A stretch of 40,476 bases of DNA from the IMG/VR virus record IMGVR_UViG_3300022688_000024, positions 1 through 40,476 of that record, one strand, 5' to 3'. Of this stretch, positions 882 through 32,509 are shown piece after piece. The stretch is from a virus. A program made the translations under genes and the position numbers. The notes under the pieces were generated by a model, which worked only from the letters and a program-made list of their open reading frames with translations, did no database searches and had not been told where the DNA came from. The first letter of the stretch is position 1. Each line of letters begins with the position of its first letter.

Positions 882-1532
882 ATGAGCGGCGATGACATCA
901 GCGGCCGACCGTGGGCGCGCAGGCCGAAGGAATCAGCGAAGGCATACAAGGCCTTCGTGACCTATCTCGAGCTCGGCGCGGGCAGAAGCATCACAAAAGC
1001 CTTCCGTAAAATCGGCAATAAATCGGGCCAGGCTCGGCATTTCGAGAAATGGAGTTCTCAGTACGAGTGGGTTTCTCGCGCTCGTGCTTACGACTCCGAC
1101 CTCATGCAGGACCGGATCCAGGGCCGCAAGCTGCAACAGGAGCAGGGCCGCCAGCTCGCCATTGACGAGACGCCGGAAATGATGCAAGAGCTCCGCGAGC
1201 TCAGCCGGGGGTACATCCGGCCGGGGCAGCAGCGGGTCAAGCTCAACCGCGATGGCAAACCGATCACCTACCCGGTGCGCGACGATGACGGCGAACCCGT
1301 GCTCGACGACGACGGCGAGCCGGTCGTTGCGCCGGTGGTGGAGGAGATGGTTAACCCGAAGGTGCGCGCCATGATCCTCAAAGACCTGCTCGCTATCGGT
1401 GGAGTAATGGCGCCTGTCCGCACCGAGATCACCGGCGCCGATGGTGTGCCGCTCGGCCTCGACGAGGCGATCCAGAGTTGGGATCCCGAGATACTGGCGG
1501 CGATGATCAAGGCGGCAGGACTCGACCTGTGA
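882..1532 (+). CDS. terS: Terminase small subunit (putative)
   Basis: A 216-aa protein directly before the large terminase, with a 4-base overlap. Residues 25-70 have the helix-turn-helix look of small terminases: a segment repeating SITKAFRKIG, then WSSQYEWVSRARAYD, a tryptophan/arginine pattern seen in many phage TerS N-termini. The middle carries an acidic repeated motif (DDDGEPV occurs twice, residues 129-142). The family recognises the packaging site and hands DNA to TerL. The assignment rests on motif resemblance plus position, so it is good but not certain. Confidence 0.75.
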   Translation: MSGDDISGRPWARRPKESAKAYKAFVTYLELGAGRSITKAFRKIGNKSGQARHFEKWSSQYEWVSRARAYDSDLMQDRIQGRKLQQEQGRQLAIDETPEMMQELRELSRGYIRPGQQRVKLNRDGKPITYPVRDDDGEPVLDDDGEPVVAPVVEEMVNPKVRAMILKDLLAIGGVMAPVRTEITGADGVPLGLDEAIQSWDPEILAAMIKAAGLDL

Positions 1533-3121
1533 ACCTCGCCGAGTCGCTAGACGTAGCCCAACGCGCCGGACAGCAAGAGGTGCTCGACGCGATCGTGCGC
1601 CACGTCGCGACGATGCGTATGCGCAGCTTCGTCAAGCAGGCATGGCACTTTCACCACGAGGAAGAACCGCTTGGGTGGAATTGGCACATCGACTGCATCT
1701 GCGATCATCTCGAGGCGGTGATCAACGGCGACATCACCTGGTTACTGATCAATGTGCCGCCCGGGTTCGCGAAGTCGCTGCTGTGCAGTGTCTACTTCCC
1801 TGCGTGGGTCTGGCTCCAAAAGCCATGGTACAAATTCCTGTGCTCGAGCACTAACGACTATGTCACCCTACGCGACGCGCGACGGCACAAAAAACTGGTT
1901 GCGTCTGCGTGGTATCAACGGGTCTTCCGGCCTACGTGGCACCTGAGCCGCGGGCAGGCTGCCGACGGAAACTTCGGCAACAGTCGAAACGGTGAGCGAG
2001 TTAGTCGCACGGTGCGGTCGAGTATCATCGGGGCGCGCCCGCATATCAAGGTGCTCGACGATGCCAACGATCCGGAGAAAGGCGCCGACGAATGCGACAA
2101 GGTGAACCACTGGATCGAGACGGTGTACTTGAAACGCCGCACGGGCACGCTCGGAAAGCTCGTAGGGATCCAACAGCGCACCAGGGAGAATGACGCCACC
2201 GGCTACCTGATGGCGCGCGAGATGAATCCAGATCTCGTGCACCTGATGATGCCGAATCGGTACGAACCGAAGCGCACGTTTCACTCGACGGTGTTCAAAC
2301 ATGGGACGTTCGAAATCTGGACCGACCCGCGCACCGAAGTCGATGAGCTTTTATTCCCCTTGATTTTGGACGAAGCGACGACGGCGCAGGAGCGCGCAGC
2401 ACCGGGCGGCGACGTGATCGACGCTGCGCAGAATCAGCAGAATCCGACGCCGTCGGGCGGGATCATATTCGACCGGGCGAGCTTCAACCGGTGGAGCGTG
2501 GTGCCCAACATCGAAGAGTGGCGCAAGGCGCCGCGGATCCCGGACTACGAGAACAAGGTATATCCTACCTACCCGCTGCCAGAGAAATTCGACTACCTGA
2601 TTATCACGGTGGACCCCAACAACCTGAAGGATGAAAAAGCGACGCGCGGCACCGACTACGCCGTGATCGATCTGTGGGGTCGGGTCGGTAACCTGTACTA
2701 CCTCGTATCGCAGGTGCGGCAGAAGCTGAGCGTGAGCGGAACCATCGCCGCGGTGCACCAGTTGTATAAGCACCACACGACGCAGATCGCCGCCATCCTG
2801 ATCGAGTCAAAGGCGAACGGCCCGACGGTGATCAACAGCCTGCGCGCGATCATGGGCATAGCGTCGGAGGAGAAACTACCTAAGAGCTTCCAGCTCGTGC
2901 GGCCGTGGAATGTGCAGGGCGAAAAGAAGGAGCAGCGCGCCAAGGCCATCGCATACGTGCCTGACAGTGGCCGTGTGTTCACACCATGCGAGCGCGACAA
3001 CGACTACTGGCGGCACTGGTACAACGAGGTCACGGGCTTCCCCGCGCGCACGCGCGACGACGTTGTTGATACCATGACGATGGCGCTGACGTTTTTTGAA
3101 GGTGAAAGAAGATTCGGGTGA
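1529..3121 (+). CDS. terL: Terminase large subunit (packaging ATPase/nuclease)
   Basis: The motor that translocates DNA into the prohead and cuts the concatemer. I prefer the GTG start at 1529, which overlaps the terS stop (GTGA), over an in-frame ATG at 1478; this gives 530 aa, a normal size. Visible motifs are LGWNWHIDCICDHL then Walker A INVPPGFAKS (about 74-83), a Walker-B-like IKVLDDAND (173-181), and a C-terminal RNase-H-like nuclease with acidic residues in IITVDPN (358-364), AAILIESK (E426) and DDVVDTM (510-516). Next to Walker A the pattern NVPPxxxKS is the one common in phage terminases. After the stop a non-coding stretch with a pentamer repeat precedes the portal. Confidence 0.95.
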   Translation: MNLAESLDVAQRAGQQEVLDAIVRHVATMRMRSFVKQAWHFHHEEEPLGWNWHIDCICDHLEAVINGDITWLLINVPPGFAKSLLCSVYFPAWVWLQKPWYKFLCSSTNDYVTLRDARRHKKLVASAWYQRVFRPTWHLSRGQAADGNFGNSRNGERVSRTVRSSIIGARPHIKVLDDANDPEKGADECDKVNHWIETVYLKRRTGTLGKLVGIQQRTRENDATGYLMAREMNPDLVHLMMPNRYEPKRTFHSTVFKHGTFEIWTDPRTEVDELLFPLILDEATTAQERAAPGGDVIDAAQNQQNPTPSGGIIFDRASFNRWSVVPNIEEWRKAPRIPDYENKVYPTYPLPEKFDYLIITVDPNNLKDEKATRGTDYAVIDLWGRVGNLYYLVSQVRQKLSVSGTIAAVHQLYKHHTTQIAAILIESKANGPTVINSLRAIMGIASEEKLPKSFQLVRPWNVQGEKKEQRAKAIAYVPDSGRVFTPCERDNDYWRHWYNEVTGFPARTRDDVVDTMTMALTFFEGERRFG

Positions 3122-3304
3122 GATTCCATACCGCACCCCACCATACCTAGCCCTGCCCAACCAAACCAAATCCAACCACACCGTACCGAACCATTGCAGT
3201 GATCGGTAATAGCACCCACGGCATCACAAAGTCAATGGCTGGCGTCCGCACGCTTGCAAAACAATCCTGGTGCGGGTAGTTTGAGAGCAAAGGAGATCTG
3301 CCCC
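3122..3304. other. terL-portal intergenic region
   Basis: This stretch holds the pentamer repeat (3126-3192) and a weak promoter-like pair upstream of the portal: TTGCAA (3254-3259), a 17-base spacer, then TAGTTT (3277-3282). The match to consensus is poor. The AAGGAG ribosome-binding site at 3290-3295 belongs to the portal gene. Confidence 0.4.
3126..3192. repeat. Strict 5-bp periodic CCNNN repeat (GGNNN on the other strand)
   Basis: Between terL and the portal, CC recurs at exactly every fifth base from 3126 to 3192 (14 units). Only one unit is broken (TC at 3171-3172). The three intervening bases vary (ATA, GCA, CCA, ATA, TAG, CTG and so on). On the minus strand this is a run of GG pairs separated by three bases, a pattern able to form two-tetrad G-quadruplexes. 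It lies outside any supported gene. Function unknown; a packaging, replication or transcription signal are all possible. Confidence 0.85.
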
Positions 3305-4735
3305 ATGCCAGGATTGATCCAACGTTTCAAGCAGTGGCGCGGCAGGCGCCGAGCTACCAAGCTAGCCCGAAATCCGGCCACCCTCGACGCTGCGCTTGCC
3401 AAGCTCACACCGGGCGAGCGTGCGCAACTCGCATCGTTTTCATCGCCGACATGGGACGACGTGGAACAGCGCTATACCATGCTCGGGCCGATGACCCCGG
3501 TATATACCACCGGGTTTCAGGGCGACGAGATCGACAAGCTCCTGCGCGCGTCGGCCTGGTCCTGGGCGAGTATCAATGGCAACGCAAAGGCCATGGCGCA
3601 ACTCACGCCGATCGTGCAGGAGCGCAAGGCTGGCAAGTGGGAAACGGCACCGCCAGCGCACCCGCTCAACGATTTCCTGGCAGACCCGCTCGGCAGCGAC
3701 GAGACCTTCCCATATTGGTCATGGTCGCACCTGTACTATGTTCTGGCGCTGCACTATTACGCGGTCGGAAACTCCTACCTGCTGCCGGTGCAGACAATGG
3801 CGGGCGGCCTGCAAGTGATTCCGCTGTTGCACCCGGAAAGCATGGACGCCGAAGTTGACAGCGAATACGAGATCCCGACGCTCTATAAGTACAGCCGCCC
3901 CGGGCAGCCTGATCGCACGTGGAAGCCGAGCGAGATCGTCAACGTGCAGGCGCCCAACCCGTCGAGCTTCTGGCGTGGCGCGGCTCCGCTGCGAGCTGCT
4001 CTGCGCAGCACCGAGATCGACCAGGTCGCCAGCGAGAGGCAGCGGTACAACCTGCGAAACAAGGTCGCGGCCGGGTCTCCGATCTTCTCATTTGACCTGC
4101 CGCTCGGGCCGACGCCAGAACAAATCATAGCAGAAAAGACGCGCCTAGAAGCAGACTTCACCGACGTGCAGGACACTGGCAAGCCGCTGTTTTTGGGCAG
4201 CGGCGCGAAGGCGATCCCGGGGTTCAACTCTGAGGAGTTGCAGGTCTTCGAAACCAAGGGGTCGGCGCGCGAAGAGATCATAGCGACCATCGGCACGCAG
4301 CCCGCTGTCATGGGCCAACTCGACGGGGCGACATACAGCAACACCAAAGAGGCGACGGTGCTGTGGTTCTCGGCGAGTATCGGCCCGATCCTGCAGATCA
4401 TCTATGGGCATCTGAATGCGCAGCTTGTGCATCGGCAGTATGACACGTCGACGCGCCTGTGGTACTCGCACGCTGGATCCCATATCGGCATGCAACTGCT
4501 CAAGGCAAAGCTAGAGGTCGGCCTCGACCTGCAGAAGCTGGGCTACACTACCAACGACATCGACGCGCACCTCGAGATGGGGATGGGCGAAAAAGACTAC
4601 CTCAACAAGTCCACCGACGCGGCGACCATCGCCGGTCACGTCGAGCCGGTGATCGACGGCGACGAGCCCGACACCGAGGAAGACGACGACAGCACCGAGG
4701 CGCCACAGCCGTTCCCGGTCGCTGTCGCTGATTAG
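3305..4735 (+). CDS. Portal protein (HK97 family)
   Basis: The ring at the unique head vertex through which DNA enters and leaves, and the docking site for terminase. The start is the ATG at 3305, nine bases after AAGGAG; upstream in-frame TTG codons lack a ribosome-binding site. The 476-aa product has the HK97-portal layout: an N-terminal basic segment, ASINGNAKAMAQL in the helix that opens the core, LHPESMD in the wing, VAAGSPIFSF, and a C-terminal crown containing ETKGSAREEIIATIG and TYSNTKEATVLW. The TYSN...EA pattern with a preceding IPP/AVMG-like segment is typical. The C-terminal tail is acidic. It sits between terL and the protease, as in other HK97-type phages. Confidence 0.9.
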   Translation: MPGLIQRFKQWRGRRRATKLARNPATLDAALAKLTPGERAQLASFSSPTWDDVEQRYTMLGPMTPVYTTGFQGDEIDKLLRASAWSWASINGNAKAMAQLTPIVQERKAGKWETAPPAHPLNDFLADPLGSDETFPYWSWSHLYYVLALHYYAVGNSYLLPVQTMAGGLQVIPLLHPESMDAEVDSEYEIPTLYKYSRPGQPDRTWKPSEIVNVQAPNPSSFWRGAAPLRAALRSTEIDQVASERQRYNLRNKVAAGSPIFSFDLPLGPTPEQIIAEKTRLEADFTDVQDTGKPLFLGSGAKAIPGFNSEELQVFETKGSAREEIIATIGTQPAVMGQLDGATYSNTKEATVLWFSASIGPILQIIYGHLNAQLVHRQYDTSTRLWYSHAGSHIGMQLLKAKLEVGLDLQKLGYTTNDIDAHLEMGMGEKDYLNKSTDAATIAGHVEPVIDGDEPDTEEDDDSTEAPQPFPVAVAD

Positions 4736-27804: not shown

Positions 27805-28236
27805 ATGACGCCAACCAACGGATACACGATAGAACCCGGCGCCGACCTGCGGGGCGCCGAGCTGCGGTACGCCGACCTGCGGAGCGCCGACCTGCGGGGC
27901 GCCAACCTGCGGGGCGCCGAGCTGCGGTACGCCAGATATAGCATTTCGGCGATCATGACGGCGAACTGGGGCGACTGTCCACCGGACGTCACGGCCCAGC
28001 TCCAGCGACTCGTCGCGGAGGCCATGCCCCACGGCCACAGGCTAATGGATCAGTGGGCGGCGTCCGATGACGGTCCGTGTCCGCTGCAACGGACAACATA
28101 TGATCGCGTCGCCCTGTTCGCCGAGCGCCGTGAATGCTGGCCGCCTCGGGGGCTGCCCTGGACACTGTGGCAAATCTGGCAACGACTCGCCCAGGCCATG
28201 GGCGTCAAAATCTCCATGCCATGGAGCGACCAATGA
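27805..28236 (+). CDS. Pentapeptide-repeat-containing protein
   Basis: A 143-aa early protein. Residues 13-42 are six tandem pentapeptides (ADLRG, AELRY, ADLRS, ADLRG, ANLRG, AELRY) encoded by six exact 15-base units. Six units give only about one and a half turns of a beta helix, too short for a DNA-mimic helix like MfpA or Qnr. The following 100 residues (TANWGDCPPDVTAQLQRLV, RLMDQWAASDDGPCPLQR) have no known family, with a W/C-rich C-terminal end. The ATG has GGAG eight bases upstream. DNA-unit homogeneity suggests recent expansion. Confidence 0.7.
   Translation: MTPTNGYTIEPGADLRGAELRYADLRSADLRGANLRGAELRYARYSISAIMTANWGDCPPDVTAQLQRLVAEAMPHGHRLMDQWAASDDGPCPLQRTTYDRVALFAERRECWPPRGLPWTLWQIWQRLAQAMGVKISMPWSDQ
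27841..27930 (+). repeat. Six tandem 15-bp repeats coding pentapeptides
   Basis: Units of the type GCCGACCTGCGGGGC repeat six times without gaps. Units 2 and 6 are identical (GCCGAGCTGCGGTAC), and units 1 and 4 are identical. Such homogeneity favours slippage or unequal exchange, so copy number may vary between relatives. Confidence 0.9.
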
Positions 28237-28701: not shown

Positions 28702-29591
28702 TGGTACTCACAGACGCCCAGAAAACCGACATCGGCCTGCAGCCAGGGCCGGGGATCTATCTCAACGTCCCGGCTGCGCAGTATTTCGCGTGGCCGTACC
28801 TCAGCAAGTCGGGGCTGAGCGACTTCGCCAAGTCGCCCGCGCTGTGGTACGGGCGGCAGACCGGCGCGATCAAACGCAAGGCATCGGCGAGCTTCGCGCT
28901 GGGCTCAGCCGTGGACATGCTATGGGTCGAGCGGCGCCCGCTGAATCCGCGATTCGGATTTCAGGTGATCCCGAAAGTCAACCCGATGACCGGGCAGGAC
29001 ATGCCGGCCAGCGGCAAGGCTCGGCAGGAGTACCTCGACAGCCTGCCGGAGGGGACCACGGCGATCAGCGCGGCCGTTGAGCGCACGGCGCTGCGCATGG
29101 CGACCGCGCTCGACAACAACGACAGGGCGCAGCGGCTGCACGCGGGCGCCATGGCGCAGGTGTCGTTGGTCTGGCGCTGCCCGCACACGGGGATCATGCT
29201 GAAGGGCAGGCCCGACTTGGTCAACTTCGATCGGCACGTACTATCGGACCTCAAAACCACGAAGGATATCAGCCCATGGGCTTTCGACCGCGACGCGAGC
29301 CAGTACAACTACCACTGGCAGCTCTATCTCTATACACAGGGACTCGTCGCCAATGGTGCCGGTGACTATGACGACTGGACCCACTGGCTGATCACCGTCG
29401 CCAACGTGGAGCCCCACGGCGTCGCTTGCAGGCCGATGCCCGCCAGCGCGCTGGAGCTCGCCGCCGAAGAGACCGCGTACCACATCCGGCGATGGTGCGA
29501 GTGCAGAGACAACAACCATTGGCCGGCCGACATCCTCGACGAAAAACCGATCGAGCTGCCGCGCTGGCGATTTCAGAGGGAGGTGGGGTGA
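28701..29591 (+). CDS. PD-(D/E)XK exonuclease (PF12684-like, RecE/RecB family)
   Basis: A 296-aa nuclease. Core elements: FALGSAVD (about 65-72), LKGRPDLVN (168-175, with Asp172), LSDLKTTKD (181-189, the D-x-K of the active site), and YHWQLYLYTQG (204-214), the Q-x-x-x-Y motif of RecB-type nucleases. Such phage enzymes chew one strand from DNA ends for annealing-based recombination. The start ATG at 28701 (TGATG) is preferred to a GTG one codon earlier. Its usual RecT-like partner could be the gp3-like gene at 31136. Confidence 0.85.
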   Translation: MVLTDAQKTDIGLQPGPGIYLNVPAAQYFAWPYLSKSGLSDFAKSPALWYGRQTGAIKRKASASFALGSAVDMLWVERRPLNPRFGFQVIPKVNPMTGQDMPASGKARQEYLDSLPEGTTAISAAVERTALRMATALDNNDRAQRLHAGAMAQVSLVWRCPHTGIMLKGRPDLVNFDRHVLSDLKTTKDISPWAFDRDASQYNYHWQLYLYTQGLVANGAGDYDDWTHWLITVANVEPHGVACRPMPASALELAAEETAYHIRRWCECRDNNHWPADILDEKPIELPRWRFQREVG

Positions 29592-30307
29592 TGAGTGACA
29601 TTAGTATCACCGCAGTGAGCACTGACGGAGGAACGCAGGCGCGTGCCAGGCTATGCGAGGACACAGTCAGCGAGTACGCCGCCGCGATGGAACGCGGCGA
29701 CGAGTTCCCGCCTGTGGTGGCGTTCTATGACGGCACAGAATACTGGATGGCTGACGGCTTCCATCGGTCCGAAGCCGCGTGCCGTGCCAATCGTGAGATC
29801 GCCGTTGAGGTACGACAAGGGACCAGGCGTGATGCGATCCTGTTTGCAGTCGGTGCCAACGACGCCCACGGGCTCCGCCGTACAAACGCCGACAAACGCC
29901 GAGCTGTAGAGACACTGCTACGGGACGACGAGTGGTCGCAGTGGAGCAACCGCGAGATCGCGCGACGGTGCAGGGTGAGCAACCACCTAGTCGCCGATGT
30001 CAAGAGGGTTCTCACTGGGAATTCTCCTAGTGACAACGAGCCCAGGACCTACACAACGAAACACGGCACGGAGGCGACCATGAAAACGGAGAACATCGGG
30101 AAGGGGCGGACGGCAGCCGCGCCGGAGAATCCGGCCGCCGAAAGCAACGAGCCCCCGGCCAAGCCTAGCAGGCCGCGTACGTCAATGGGGGACACGGTGG
30201 CAAGGAACTGTATCAAGTGGCTGAAGCAGGTGACCAGGACCGATAAGTACCGAAAAGAATGCTTCGAGATGATGCGAGAATTCATGAAGACAAGGGAGGA
30301 TTGGTAG
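29591..30307 (+). CDS. ParB-like protein with HTH
   Basis: A 238-aa protein. The N-terminus matches the ParB/Srx-like domain: VVAFYDGTEYWMADGFHRSEA, with the DGFHR box (55-59) where ParB has (D)G.HR. A helix-turn-helix follows (NREIARRCRVSNHLVADVKR, about 120-139). Residues after 150 are Pro/Thr/Lys-rich and end in a helix. At 30080 an in-frame ATG has a perfect GGAGG five bases upstream, so a separate 75-aa C-terminal product is likely made too. Codon use changes near here. Usual roles of this family range from DNA partition to nuclease-like regulation. Which applies here is open. Confidence 0.75.
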   Translation: MSDISITAVSTDGGTQARARLCEDTVSEYAAAMERGDEFPPVVAFYDGTEYWMADGFHRSEAACRANREIAVEVRQGTRRDAILFAVGANDAHGLRRTNADKRRAVETLLRDDEWSQWSNREIARRCRVSNHLVADVKRVLTGNSPSDNEPRTYTTKHGTEATMKTENIGKGRTAAAPENPAAESNEPPAKPSRPRTSMGDTVARNCIKWLKQVTRTDKYRKECFEMMREFMKTREDW

Positions 30308-30308
30308 G

Positions 30309-31139
30309 ATGAAAACGCAAACGAGCACAAATTACTCACGGTTCGATCTGGAGACGTTCAACAGGGAACTGACCAGGGGGCACATATTTGAGATTGCGGA
30401 GAACATGCGTCTCAACGGATTCAAGGAGTCCGAGGCGATCCTTGTGTATCCAGACCCAGCCAACCCGAGGACGCTGCAAGTCGTCGACGGGCACCACAGG
30501 TTCCTCGCTGCCAAGGATCTCGGTCTGCCGATCAAGTTCAAGGTCCTTCCGCCGGGGTCCAACCCGACCCAGGAGTTGCTCGACAAGGTGCTTCTCCAGA
30601 AGTCATGGACCATCAACGACCTGGTGGACCTGCACGCTGAGAGCATTGGCGACTACTCCGAACTGCGAGAGTTTCATTCGTCCACTGGCATCGGTTACTG
30701 TGTCGCAGCCAAACTGTACTCCGGCGGCATCGCCGGGAAGAAACTTTCCCGCGCGCTCAAAAATGGCACGTGGCGGATCTCAGATTACGCCTTCGCTAGC
30801 AGGGTCGCTCACATAGTCAGTGCTATCGCCGGGTGGCATGGGAGACGGTTCGCGTCTCGGACCGGACTGGTTAATGCCATATCGGCATTGTGTTCGGTCG
30901 CCTTCTTCGCCGACGATTACATGATCGCTGCGATCGACAAGAACGCCAAGCTACTGCTTCCGGTGGCACCCATGCACGACAACCTTGAGCAGCTTGACAG
31001 GATCTATAATAAGGGGCGCGGGGTAATGTCGTTGCCGTTGAGCGAGACGGCCGCAGCGGTCATGGACCTCAGGCGCCGGGCGAAGGGGAACAGGGCCAAA
31101 TATCACGAGTTCGACATTCTCAGGGAGGAAGCCAAATGA
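30309..31139 (+). CDS. Second ParB-like protein
   Basis: A 276-aa protein starting one base after the previous stop with MKTQTSTNYSRFDLETFN. Its ParB core, VDGHHRFLAAKDLGL (60-74), has the G-H-H-R motif of the nucleotide-binding domain, with ILVYPDPANPRTLQVVD before it. The rest is helical (LRALKNGTWRISDYAFASR region) and unlike the first ParB-like protein. Arg codons AGG are more frequent than in neighbours, a hint of separate origin. ATGA overlap with the next gene. Confidence 0.75.
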   Translation: MKTQTSTNYSRFDLETFNRELTRGHIFEIAENMRLNGFKESEAILVYPDPANPRTLQVVDGHHRFLAAKDLGLPIKFKVLPPGSNPTQELLDKVLLQKSWTINDLVDLHAESIGDYSELREFHSSTGIGYCVAAKLYSGGIAGKKLSRALKNGTWRISDYAFASRVAHIVSAIAGWHGRRFASRTGLVNAISALCSVAFFADDYMIAAIDKNAKLLLPVAPMHDNLEQLDRIYNKGRGVMSLPLSETAAAVMDLRRRAKGNRAKYHEFDILREEAK

Positions 31140-32509
31140 TCAAAAATCTACGAGCAAGCCTAGCGCAAGCGGGCCACATCAAAATCGGCGGCAAGGGTAA
31201 AATGATCCGGTCGTCGCGCGGCAACGAATTCCGACCGCCGCAGAAGCACGATCACTTCACGATCACGACACTGCAACGCGAGGGCGGCACAAAGGACGGC
31301 AACCTCATCACCGACGAGAAGATCATGTCGCAGCTCGCCGCCGAATACGCCGACCAGGACGGCAAGATCCGCACGTTGCCGATCGTCGTGCATAGCGATG
31401 ATATCGACCTCGTGTTTCCCACTGCCTATGTGAGCTATCGCGGTCGGTCGGTGTACTGCCGCGGCGACGGCGAGACGGCCGAGCGGCGCGTGTACGATGA
31501 CCGCGGCGAGTGGCACGGTGAGGTCAAGACCGTTGACTGCCCGTGCGACCTGCTGCAGCCCGACGCCAAGGGCAACCGGCGCTGCAAGTACAGCGGCGCG
31601 CTGCACTGCTCACTGCGCGTGCCTGGGCAGGCCGTGGCCGGCGCCGTGCACCGCTGGCGCACTACGTCGCAGATCTCCTGTGAGCAGATGTACGGCTCGC
31701 TACTGCAGATCATCGAGACGGTGGGGATCCTCAAAGGGCTGCCGTTGGTGCTGCGCGTGCGTCCGGTCCAGGTCGACCCAGTCGGCGGGCGGCCGTCGAC
31801 TGTGTACGTCTGTCACGTGGAGCTCCGCGCCGAGAATTTGCAGGCCGTTCAGCGGCAGGCGCTTGAGCTCGCCCAGATGCGCGGCGCGCTCAACAACCAG
31901 ATCGCACAGGCGCAAGCTGGCAGCTACCGCGCCATGTTGCAAGAGCCCGGCACCGGCAGCGCCGAAGACCTCGAGGCCGAAGGCGAAGAGTTCTACCCCG
32001 ACGCCATCGACGCCGCGGCCGATCCTGTCGCCACCGAGCAGCCGAGCTACGCCGATGCGCCGCTGGCGGGAATCATGCCGCCTGCCGAGACCACGGCGCC
32101 CGCACCGGTGCCACCGGCAGCGCCGGCAACGCCCGAGCCCGAGCCGCCGAAGAAACGCACGCGCCGGACCACGTGCAAGAGTTGCGGTGAAAAATTCGGG
32201 CCGGGCATCGTCAAGAACGGCCAGTGCACCGATTGCCGAGCCAAGGCGAGCGCGCCCGACGCCGAACCGGAGCCACCAGCCAGGCCCGCCGACCCCGCAC
32301 CGGAAATCGGCAACGGCCCGCCCGCGACGCCCTACCAGCGTATGCAAGCGATGGTCCGAGACACGATCCAAAATCGGGGCGTCGACCAAGGCAAAGTGGT
32401 TGCCGCTATCGCGCAGGCCTGGCCGGACTACGAGGCGCGCACGAAGGCGCAGTCGTGGACCGATGACGACATCGACATCATGGAAGGCGTGCTTGGGGGG
32501 CTCGAATGA
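31136..32509 (+). CDS. gp3-like protein (recombination directionality factor-like)
   Basis: A 457-aa protein. Residues 1-240 follow the layout of the gp3/RDF-like family: HIKIGGKGKMIRSSRG, HFTITTLQREGGTKDGNLI, IRTLPIVVHSDDIDLVFPTA, the CRGDG box (108-112), a cysteine cluster VDCPCD...RRCKYSGALHC (133-158), then TTSQISCEQMYGSLLQIIE and LPLVLRVRP. The family includes phiC31 gp3, which steers integrase, and other members thought to bind single-stranded DNA. After a Pro/Ala linker a zinc ribbon follows (CKSCG...CTDC). A C-terminal helical region closes it. No integrase is present here. Confidence 0.7.
   Translation: MIKNLRASLAQAGHIKIGGKGKMIRSSRGNEFRPPQKHDHFTITTLQREGGTKDGNLITDEKIMSQLAAEYADQDGKIRTLPIVVHSDDIDLVFPTAYVSYRGRSVYCRGDGETAERRVYDDRGEWHGEVKTVDCPCDLLQPDAKGNRRCKYSGALHCSLRVPGQAVAGAVHRWRTTSQISCEQMYGSLLQIIETVGILKGLPLVLRVRPVQVDPVGGRPSTVYVCHVELRAENLQAVQRQALELAQMRGALNNQIAQAQAGSYRAMLQEPGTGSAEDLEAEGEEFYPDAIDAAADPVATEQPSYADAPLAGIMPPAETTAPAPVPPAAPATPEPEPPKKRTRRTTCKSCGEKFGPGIVKNGQCTDCRAKASAPDAEPEPPARPADPAPEIGNGPPATPYQRMQAMVRDTIQNRGVDQGKVVAAIAQAWPDYEARTKAQSWTDDDIDIMEGVLGGLE

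Follow-up and report, generated by a model that had tools for sequence, protein, structure and literature searches.

Gene content of the window and the terL–portal gap

The window, by which we mean the whole 40,476-nucleotide stretch of viral DNA analysed here, encodes terminase, portal, protease, capsid, sheath, tape measure, baseplate and SLT lysozyme-like proteins as well as exonuclease VIII, ParB-like, RusA, helicase and primase proteins. Judged from this gene content the 40.5-kb stretch appears to be close to a whole myovirus, since head, tail, lysis-like and replication modules are all present. No DNA-level relatives of the window were found among phages, and viral relatives of its TerL, none of which were recovered with a single TerL query, were found with an alignment. 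The window gave no Rfam match and no tRNA. A Gp3-like recombination directionality factor (RDF) domain (PF18897) is encoded at 31136–32506 and no integrase is recognised in the window, which leaves room for a missing piece of the genome. Two ParB-like genes are adjacent at 29591–30304 and 30309–31136, the first of them overlapped by spurious minus-strand open reading frames, and a 15-base tandem repeat of six units at 27838–27933 probably encodes a pentapeptide-type repeat. The features with which this study is concerned are the following:

1478–3121, plus strand: terminase large subunit gene (terL); the array ends 4 bases past its stop codon
3122–3304, no strand assigned: 183-base terL–portal gap, the insert that holds the array and its promoter
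3125–3194, minus strand: vrRNA-like variable tract of 14 NN-GGY units, with one internal deviation and a final unit GGA
3206–3235, minus strand: sigma-70-like promoter, −35 TTGACT (3235–3230), 18-base spacer, −10 TATTAC (3211–3206)
3305–4735, plus strand: portal protein gene; ATG at 3305 with AAAGGAG upstream, TTG at 3254 as alternative start

On the plus strand, CC recurs every 5 bases from 3126 to 3192 in 13 of 14 phases (3126, 3131, 3136 and so on to 3191), the sole exception being TC at 3171, and the array lies outside genes, between the TerL stop codon (3119–3121) and the portal start (~3305); in both respects the first-pass annotation of this DNA was accurate. The array is not a product of chance: when the whole window was simulated 300 times with a third-order Markov model, the maximum was 6–10 and never 13 of 14, and the best 5-base-phase count of CC or GG elsewhere in the window is 7 of 14. 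The three bases between successive CC dinucleotides had been described as free, and this is mostly true but fails for the base that precedes CC, which is A in ten units and G in two. The real unit is RCCNN, or NN-GGY when read on the minus strand, rather than CCNNN. Read 5′ to 3′ on that strand, units 1–7 are AT-GGT, TC-GGT, AC-GGT, GT-GGT, TG-GAT, TT-GGT and TT-GGT, and units 8–14 are TG-GGC, AG-GGC, TA-GGT, AT-GGT, GG-GGT, GC-GGT and AT-GGA. A pyrimidine follows GG in 12 of 13 cases (p = 0.03 taken alone) and T follows it in 10 of 13, where the background frequency is 0.27 (p = 3e-4); T and C at this position thus stand at 10:2, and the window's own background favours C. The NN positions hold 10 distinct dinucleotides among the 14 units. 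A coding origin was rejected, as the NN include TA and TG, which lead to stop codons, and the arrays are intergenic.

Likeness of the array to VIPR guide RNAs

VIPR, as described in a 2026 preprint (PMC13142463), combines a RAMP-family protein, Vipr, with vrRNAs of 9–16 YNNGG repeats; it is phage-borne and is proposed there as an ancestor of CRISPR. The main text of the preprint gives the rule by which vrRNAs read DNA as NN-skip one-NN, names phage SUSP1 and a Pseudomonas fulva prophage as examples, and mentions satellites that carry vrRNAs of their own as well as “staggered arrays with overlapping vrRNAs” (PMC13142463). A vrRNA of this kind is a small RNA whose 3′ tail is structured and does not vary, and its target lies in a competing element. 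It is the only description of such an array in a phage that we found, and the earlier remark that none was known was a fair one.

The window array has two of the features of a vrRNA, namely 9–16 tandem NN-GGY units (here 14 units, 13 of them with GG and 12 with GGY) in which hypervariable NN accompany a fixed GGY. The same detector applied to the SUSP1 VIPR locus as a positive control found three arrays, of the four vrRNAs reported there (PMC13142463), with scores of 11.2, 10.8 and 5.4, and the window array scores 11.0 and has fewer deviations than two of those three. As a negative control, 714 kb of other viral DNA held no array at a score of ≥5, and the window read backwards gave one chance score of 8.6, which is the same array reversed with NN and GG still in phase. 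The T:C ratio at Y, roughly 5:1, is the same in 353 other arrays; where a unit in those arrays lacks GG it is most often GAT, the internal deviation of the window array, and their quartiles of 11–17 units take in the window's 14. The GGY grammar, the preference for T over C, the GAT deviation, the SUSP1-level score and the empty controls together make a vrRNA-type sequence very probable, and we regard the window array with considerable confidence as a VIPR-type vrRNA gene.

Arrays in other records and their protein partner

When viral contigs were scanned by grammar alone, at least 120 loci with six ACCNN units were obtained. Microsatellites and coding repeats among the first matches were set apart by NN entropy and open frames, and about 40 of the loci listed are neither, being diverse, intergenic and often several to a contig; contigs with several arrays have identical spacers and entirely different NN. 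A stricter pattern that omits simple repeats matched 65 viral loci; across 257 billion bases from bacterial and archaeal genomes it matched only 8. All arrays of a given record share a strand, and there are hardly any hits to the reversed pattern. A strand polarity of the DNA itself was rejected as the reason, since gene context shows that the arrays follow the local genes; read as GGYNN, arrays elsewhere are sense with their neighbouring genes. In all, about 75 viral array records were found without prior knowledge of VIPR.

Clustering of the genes that flank arrays gave one dominant family of ~185–225 aa (105 flank entries, 70 distinct proteins), which matched no Pfam family, is phrog_4652 (function unannotated there) and matches PDB entry 36pp, “SUSP1 Vipr protein” (E 1.3e-9). 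A profile built from 45 Viprs finds a homologue in 66 of 75 other array-bearing viral records, usually beside the array; most of the 45 members came from array-bearing records, so this figure is a survey of co-occurrence and not an independent test of the profile. The profile reaches very divergent members, at E values of 1e-17 to 1e-23.

Several further features stand out among the array-bearing records. Six of them, including IMGVR_UViG_3300025122_000199, contain arrays of arrays, with as many as 18 consecutive vrRNA-like tracts whose headers or spacers are identical and whose NN are wholly different, which implies that NN alone either diversifies fast or is selected to differ. In five others (one of them 112 kb long) GGYNN recurs 40 to 116 times within a single tract, far above the published 9–16, and these tracts may correspond to the “staggered arrays with overlapping vrRNAs” of the preprint (PMC13142463). 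No Vipr was detectable in array-bearing records of 105, 67, 56, 18 and 20 kb, and in the 56-kb record the arrays have beside them a 160-aa protein whose family recurs at array flanks; the three largest of these records may belong to a small class, either of orphan arrays or of a Vipr type that still escapes detection. Recurrent array-neighbour families of ~150–230 aa that have no clear annotation, one of them phosphoesterase-like and one ParB-like, were seen in five records among others and are candidate vap accessory proteins. A few cellular contigs, bacterial and archaeal, also match the pattern: a Paludibacter MAG, which is one of the six records above and has 10 arrays in 0.9 kb, a Thermoplasmatota MAG and three more.

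An inserted unit with a promoter-like site

The spacer of the promoter-like site at 3235–3206 ends in an extended −10 TGC, the −10 element ends 12 bases before the first unit, and the predicted start, at ~3199, is 5 bases ahead of that unit. The site ranks fourth in the window, both strands considered, with a weight matrix entered by hand, and it is absent from a stricter scan that requires T at the last −10 position; for these two reasons we treat the promoter as moderate evidence.

In the closest TerL relative found (44%) the terL stop codon touches the portal start, and the gap after terL is ≤94 bases in 44 of 49 relatives versus 183 bases in the window. The surroundings of related terL genes, 565 kb in all, hold no array at a score of ≥5. 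The first-pass annotation would have counted loss of the period in relatives against the array; the period does vanish there, and its absence marks the array as an insert, not an artefact. With the relatives' gap short or nonexistent and their terL surroundings free of arrays, the array and promoter form a small inserted cassette, and a self-contained unit with its own promoter would have the architecture of a moron.

The array is antisense to both of its neighbours, terL and portal, and, since it ends 4 bases after the terL stop codon, any 3′ tail of its RNA would run antisense into the end of terL. No terminal unit or stem-loop tail like those of SUSP1 is visible at the window array, which is present here in a single copy, and no stable fold of the array RNA was found (z = +1.2 versus shuffles).

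Searches for vipr, vap and targets

Neither a profile HMM (best E ~6) nor phrog_4652 nor profile-profile comparison (probability <1%, where the control gave 99%) revealed a Vipr in the window. No vap accessory gene was found near the array; the sole match to an array-flanking family is the generic ParB-like protein at 29591–30304, 26 kb away. As neither vipr nor vap is detectable, we do not class the window as a complete VIPR system. Target scans of all viral contigs with units 1–9, 5–13, 4–11 and 7–14 gave chance-level matches only, at best 23 of 28 positions, and the best self-target in the window (18 of 28) is also at chance level.

Proposed function and alternatives

We favour the reading, to which we assign a probability of roughly 0.6, that the array is a stand-alone vrRNA moron which uses a Vipr supplied in trans. 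Minus strand 3125–3199 would be a vrRNA gene transcribed from its own promoter (3235–3206) towards terL; each GGY would be held by one subunit of Vipr, a Cas7-like RAMP protein polymerising along the RNA, and the 14 NN would jointly pair with a DNA target of the form ATxTCxACxGTxTGxTTxTTxTGxAGxTAxATxGGxGCxAT. Because none was detected in the window, the partner Vipr has to be assumed, and the RNA might be loaded onto one from a co-resident prophage, a satellite, a co-infecting phage or the host, so redirecting it to repress a competitor. For the narrower claim that the window vrRNA works as a guide in trans we see even odds. We put at about one half the chance of the general proposition that phages carry solitary, promoter-driven vrRNA cassettes without vipr, which either commandeer the Vipr of another element or jam a hostile one as decoys.

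The best-surviving alternative, which we nonetheless think unlikely, is that the array belongs to a complete VIPR system and that its vipr and vap either sit in a stretch of genome absent from the record or have diverged beyond detection. The record is classed as linear and may be incomplete, the RDF-like gene (PF18897) suggests an unrecognised integrase, the preprint describes seven VIPR types and great diversity among Viprs (PMC13142463), and the 105-, 67- and 56-kb records likewise have arrays and no detectable Vipr. However, the window already has the modules of a 40-kb myovirus (head, tail, lysis-like, replication), and vipr usually adjoins the arrays elsewhere while the neighbours here are terL and portal; excessive divergence is also difficult to reconcile with the reach of the Vipr profile and the 99% profile-profile control.

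A somewhat less probable alternative is an RNA anti-VIPR decoy, in which a vrRNA mimic would occupy a hostile Vipr as Racrs do with Cas proteins (PMC10651486). Such a role would suit a unit that stands alone behind its own promoter, with no vipr and no 3′ tail in evidence and with no target found, but a decoy needs GGY and not varied NN, of which there are 10 in 14 units, and the precedent concerns CRISPR only. Slightly less probable again, the array could be a relic or a passively carried fragment of a VIPR locus that has lost expression. The lack of vipr and of an evident tail and the antisense position are in keeping with decay, but the array deviates less from the grammar than two of the three SUSP1 arrays do, and a good promoter-like site is rightly placed.

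Readings outside VIPR (two-tetrad G-quadruplexes, a decayed pentamer microsatellite, a plus-strand Rho-utilisation site or a site for a TRAP-like ring protein) are very improbable. The first-pass annotation had judged correctly that the G-rich minus strand is the relevant one and that something probably reads the array in 5-base steps; GG at such steps could stack, and Rho sites are C-rich and G-poor, as is the plus strand over the 70 bases of the array. Its own proposals, two-tetrad G-quadruplexes or a protein bound at each half turn of the DNA, are not supported: neither predicts the pyrimidine after GG, the co-occurrence of arrays with Vipr in 66 of 75 records or the minus-strand promoter just upstream. 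More generally, the non-VIPR readings leave the GGY, the preference for T over C, the promoter and the link to vipr unpredicted, a recent microsatellite would have less diverse units, and such arrays are absent from the 714 kb of unrelated viral DNA. TRAP sites consist of 11 GAG/UAG-NN repeats and resemble the window array in their 5-base RNA period and in joining a fixed triplet to a free dinucleotide; a TRAP-like ring protein was rejected, as PF02081 is absent from all 39 records searched and the triplet is GGY, not GAG or UAG.

The RNA-guided VIPR system has been described only recently; its code is noncontiguous, and it is proposed to be older than CRISPR. If the window represents a phage that lacks Vipr and carries a vrRNA cassette of its own, this would show that guides travel apart from the protein, as with mini-CRISPR arrays and RNA anti-CRISPRs. 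The window cassette, with one RNA of ~75 bases and one predicted target, offers a simple test of trans-loading or decoy action, and the ~75 array-bearing viral records provide material on how the NN code diversifies.

Comparison with known systems

Racrs are solitary phage-borne RNA units that mimic the guide scaffold of a CRISPR effector (PMC10651486), and the window unit is likewise solitary and phage-borne; what Racrs mimic are CRISPR repeats, and a decoy role for the window unit is a candidate only. Virus-borne mini-CRISPR arrays (PMC6858448), which act in virus–virus conflict, resemble the window in being a viral guide-RNA locus without effector genes, but they consist of CRISPR repeats and contiguous spacers whereas the window has a noncontiguous pentamer code, so that only the logic is common to the two.

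With VIPR itself the window shares NN-GGY pentamers, the number of units, the preference for GGT over GGC, hypervariable NN, carriage by a phage and an array of SUSP1-like quality. It differs in that no vipr or vap was found in it, in its antisense orientation to its neighbours, in its position as an insert between terL and portal, in its lack of a SUSP1-like tail and in having a single array. The kind of system has been known since 2026, and a Vipr-less, promoter-driven terL–portal cassette is a variant that goes beyond the main text of that preprint (PMC13142463).
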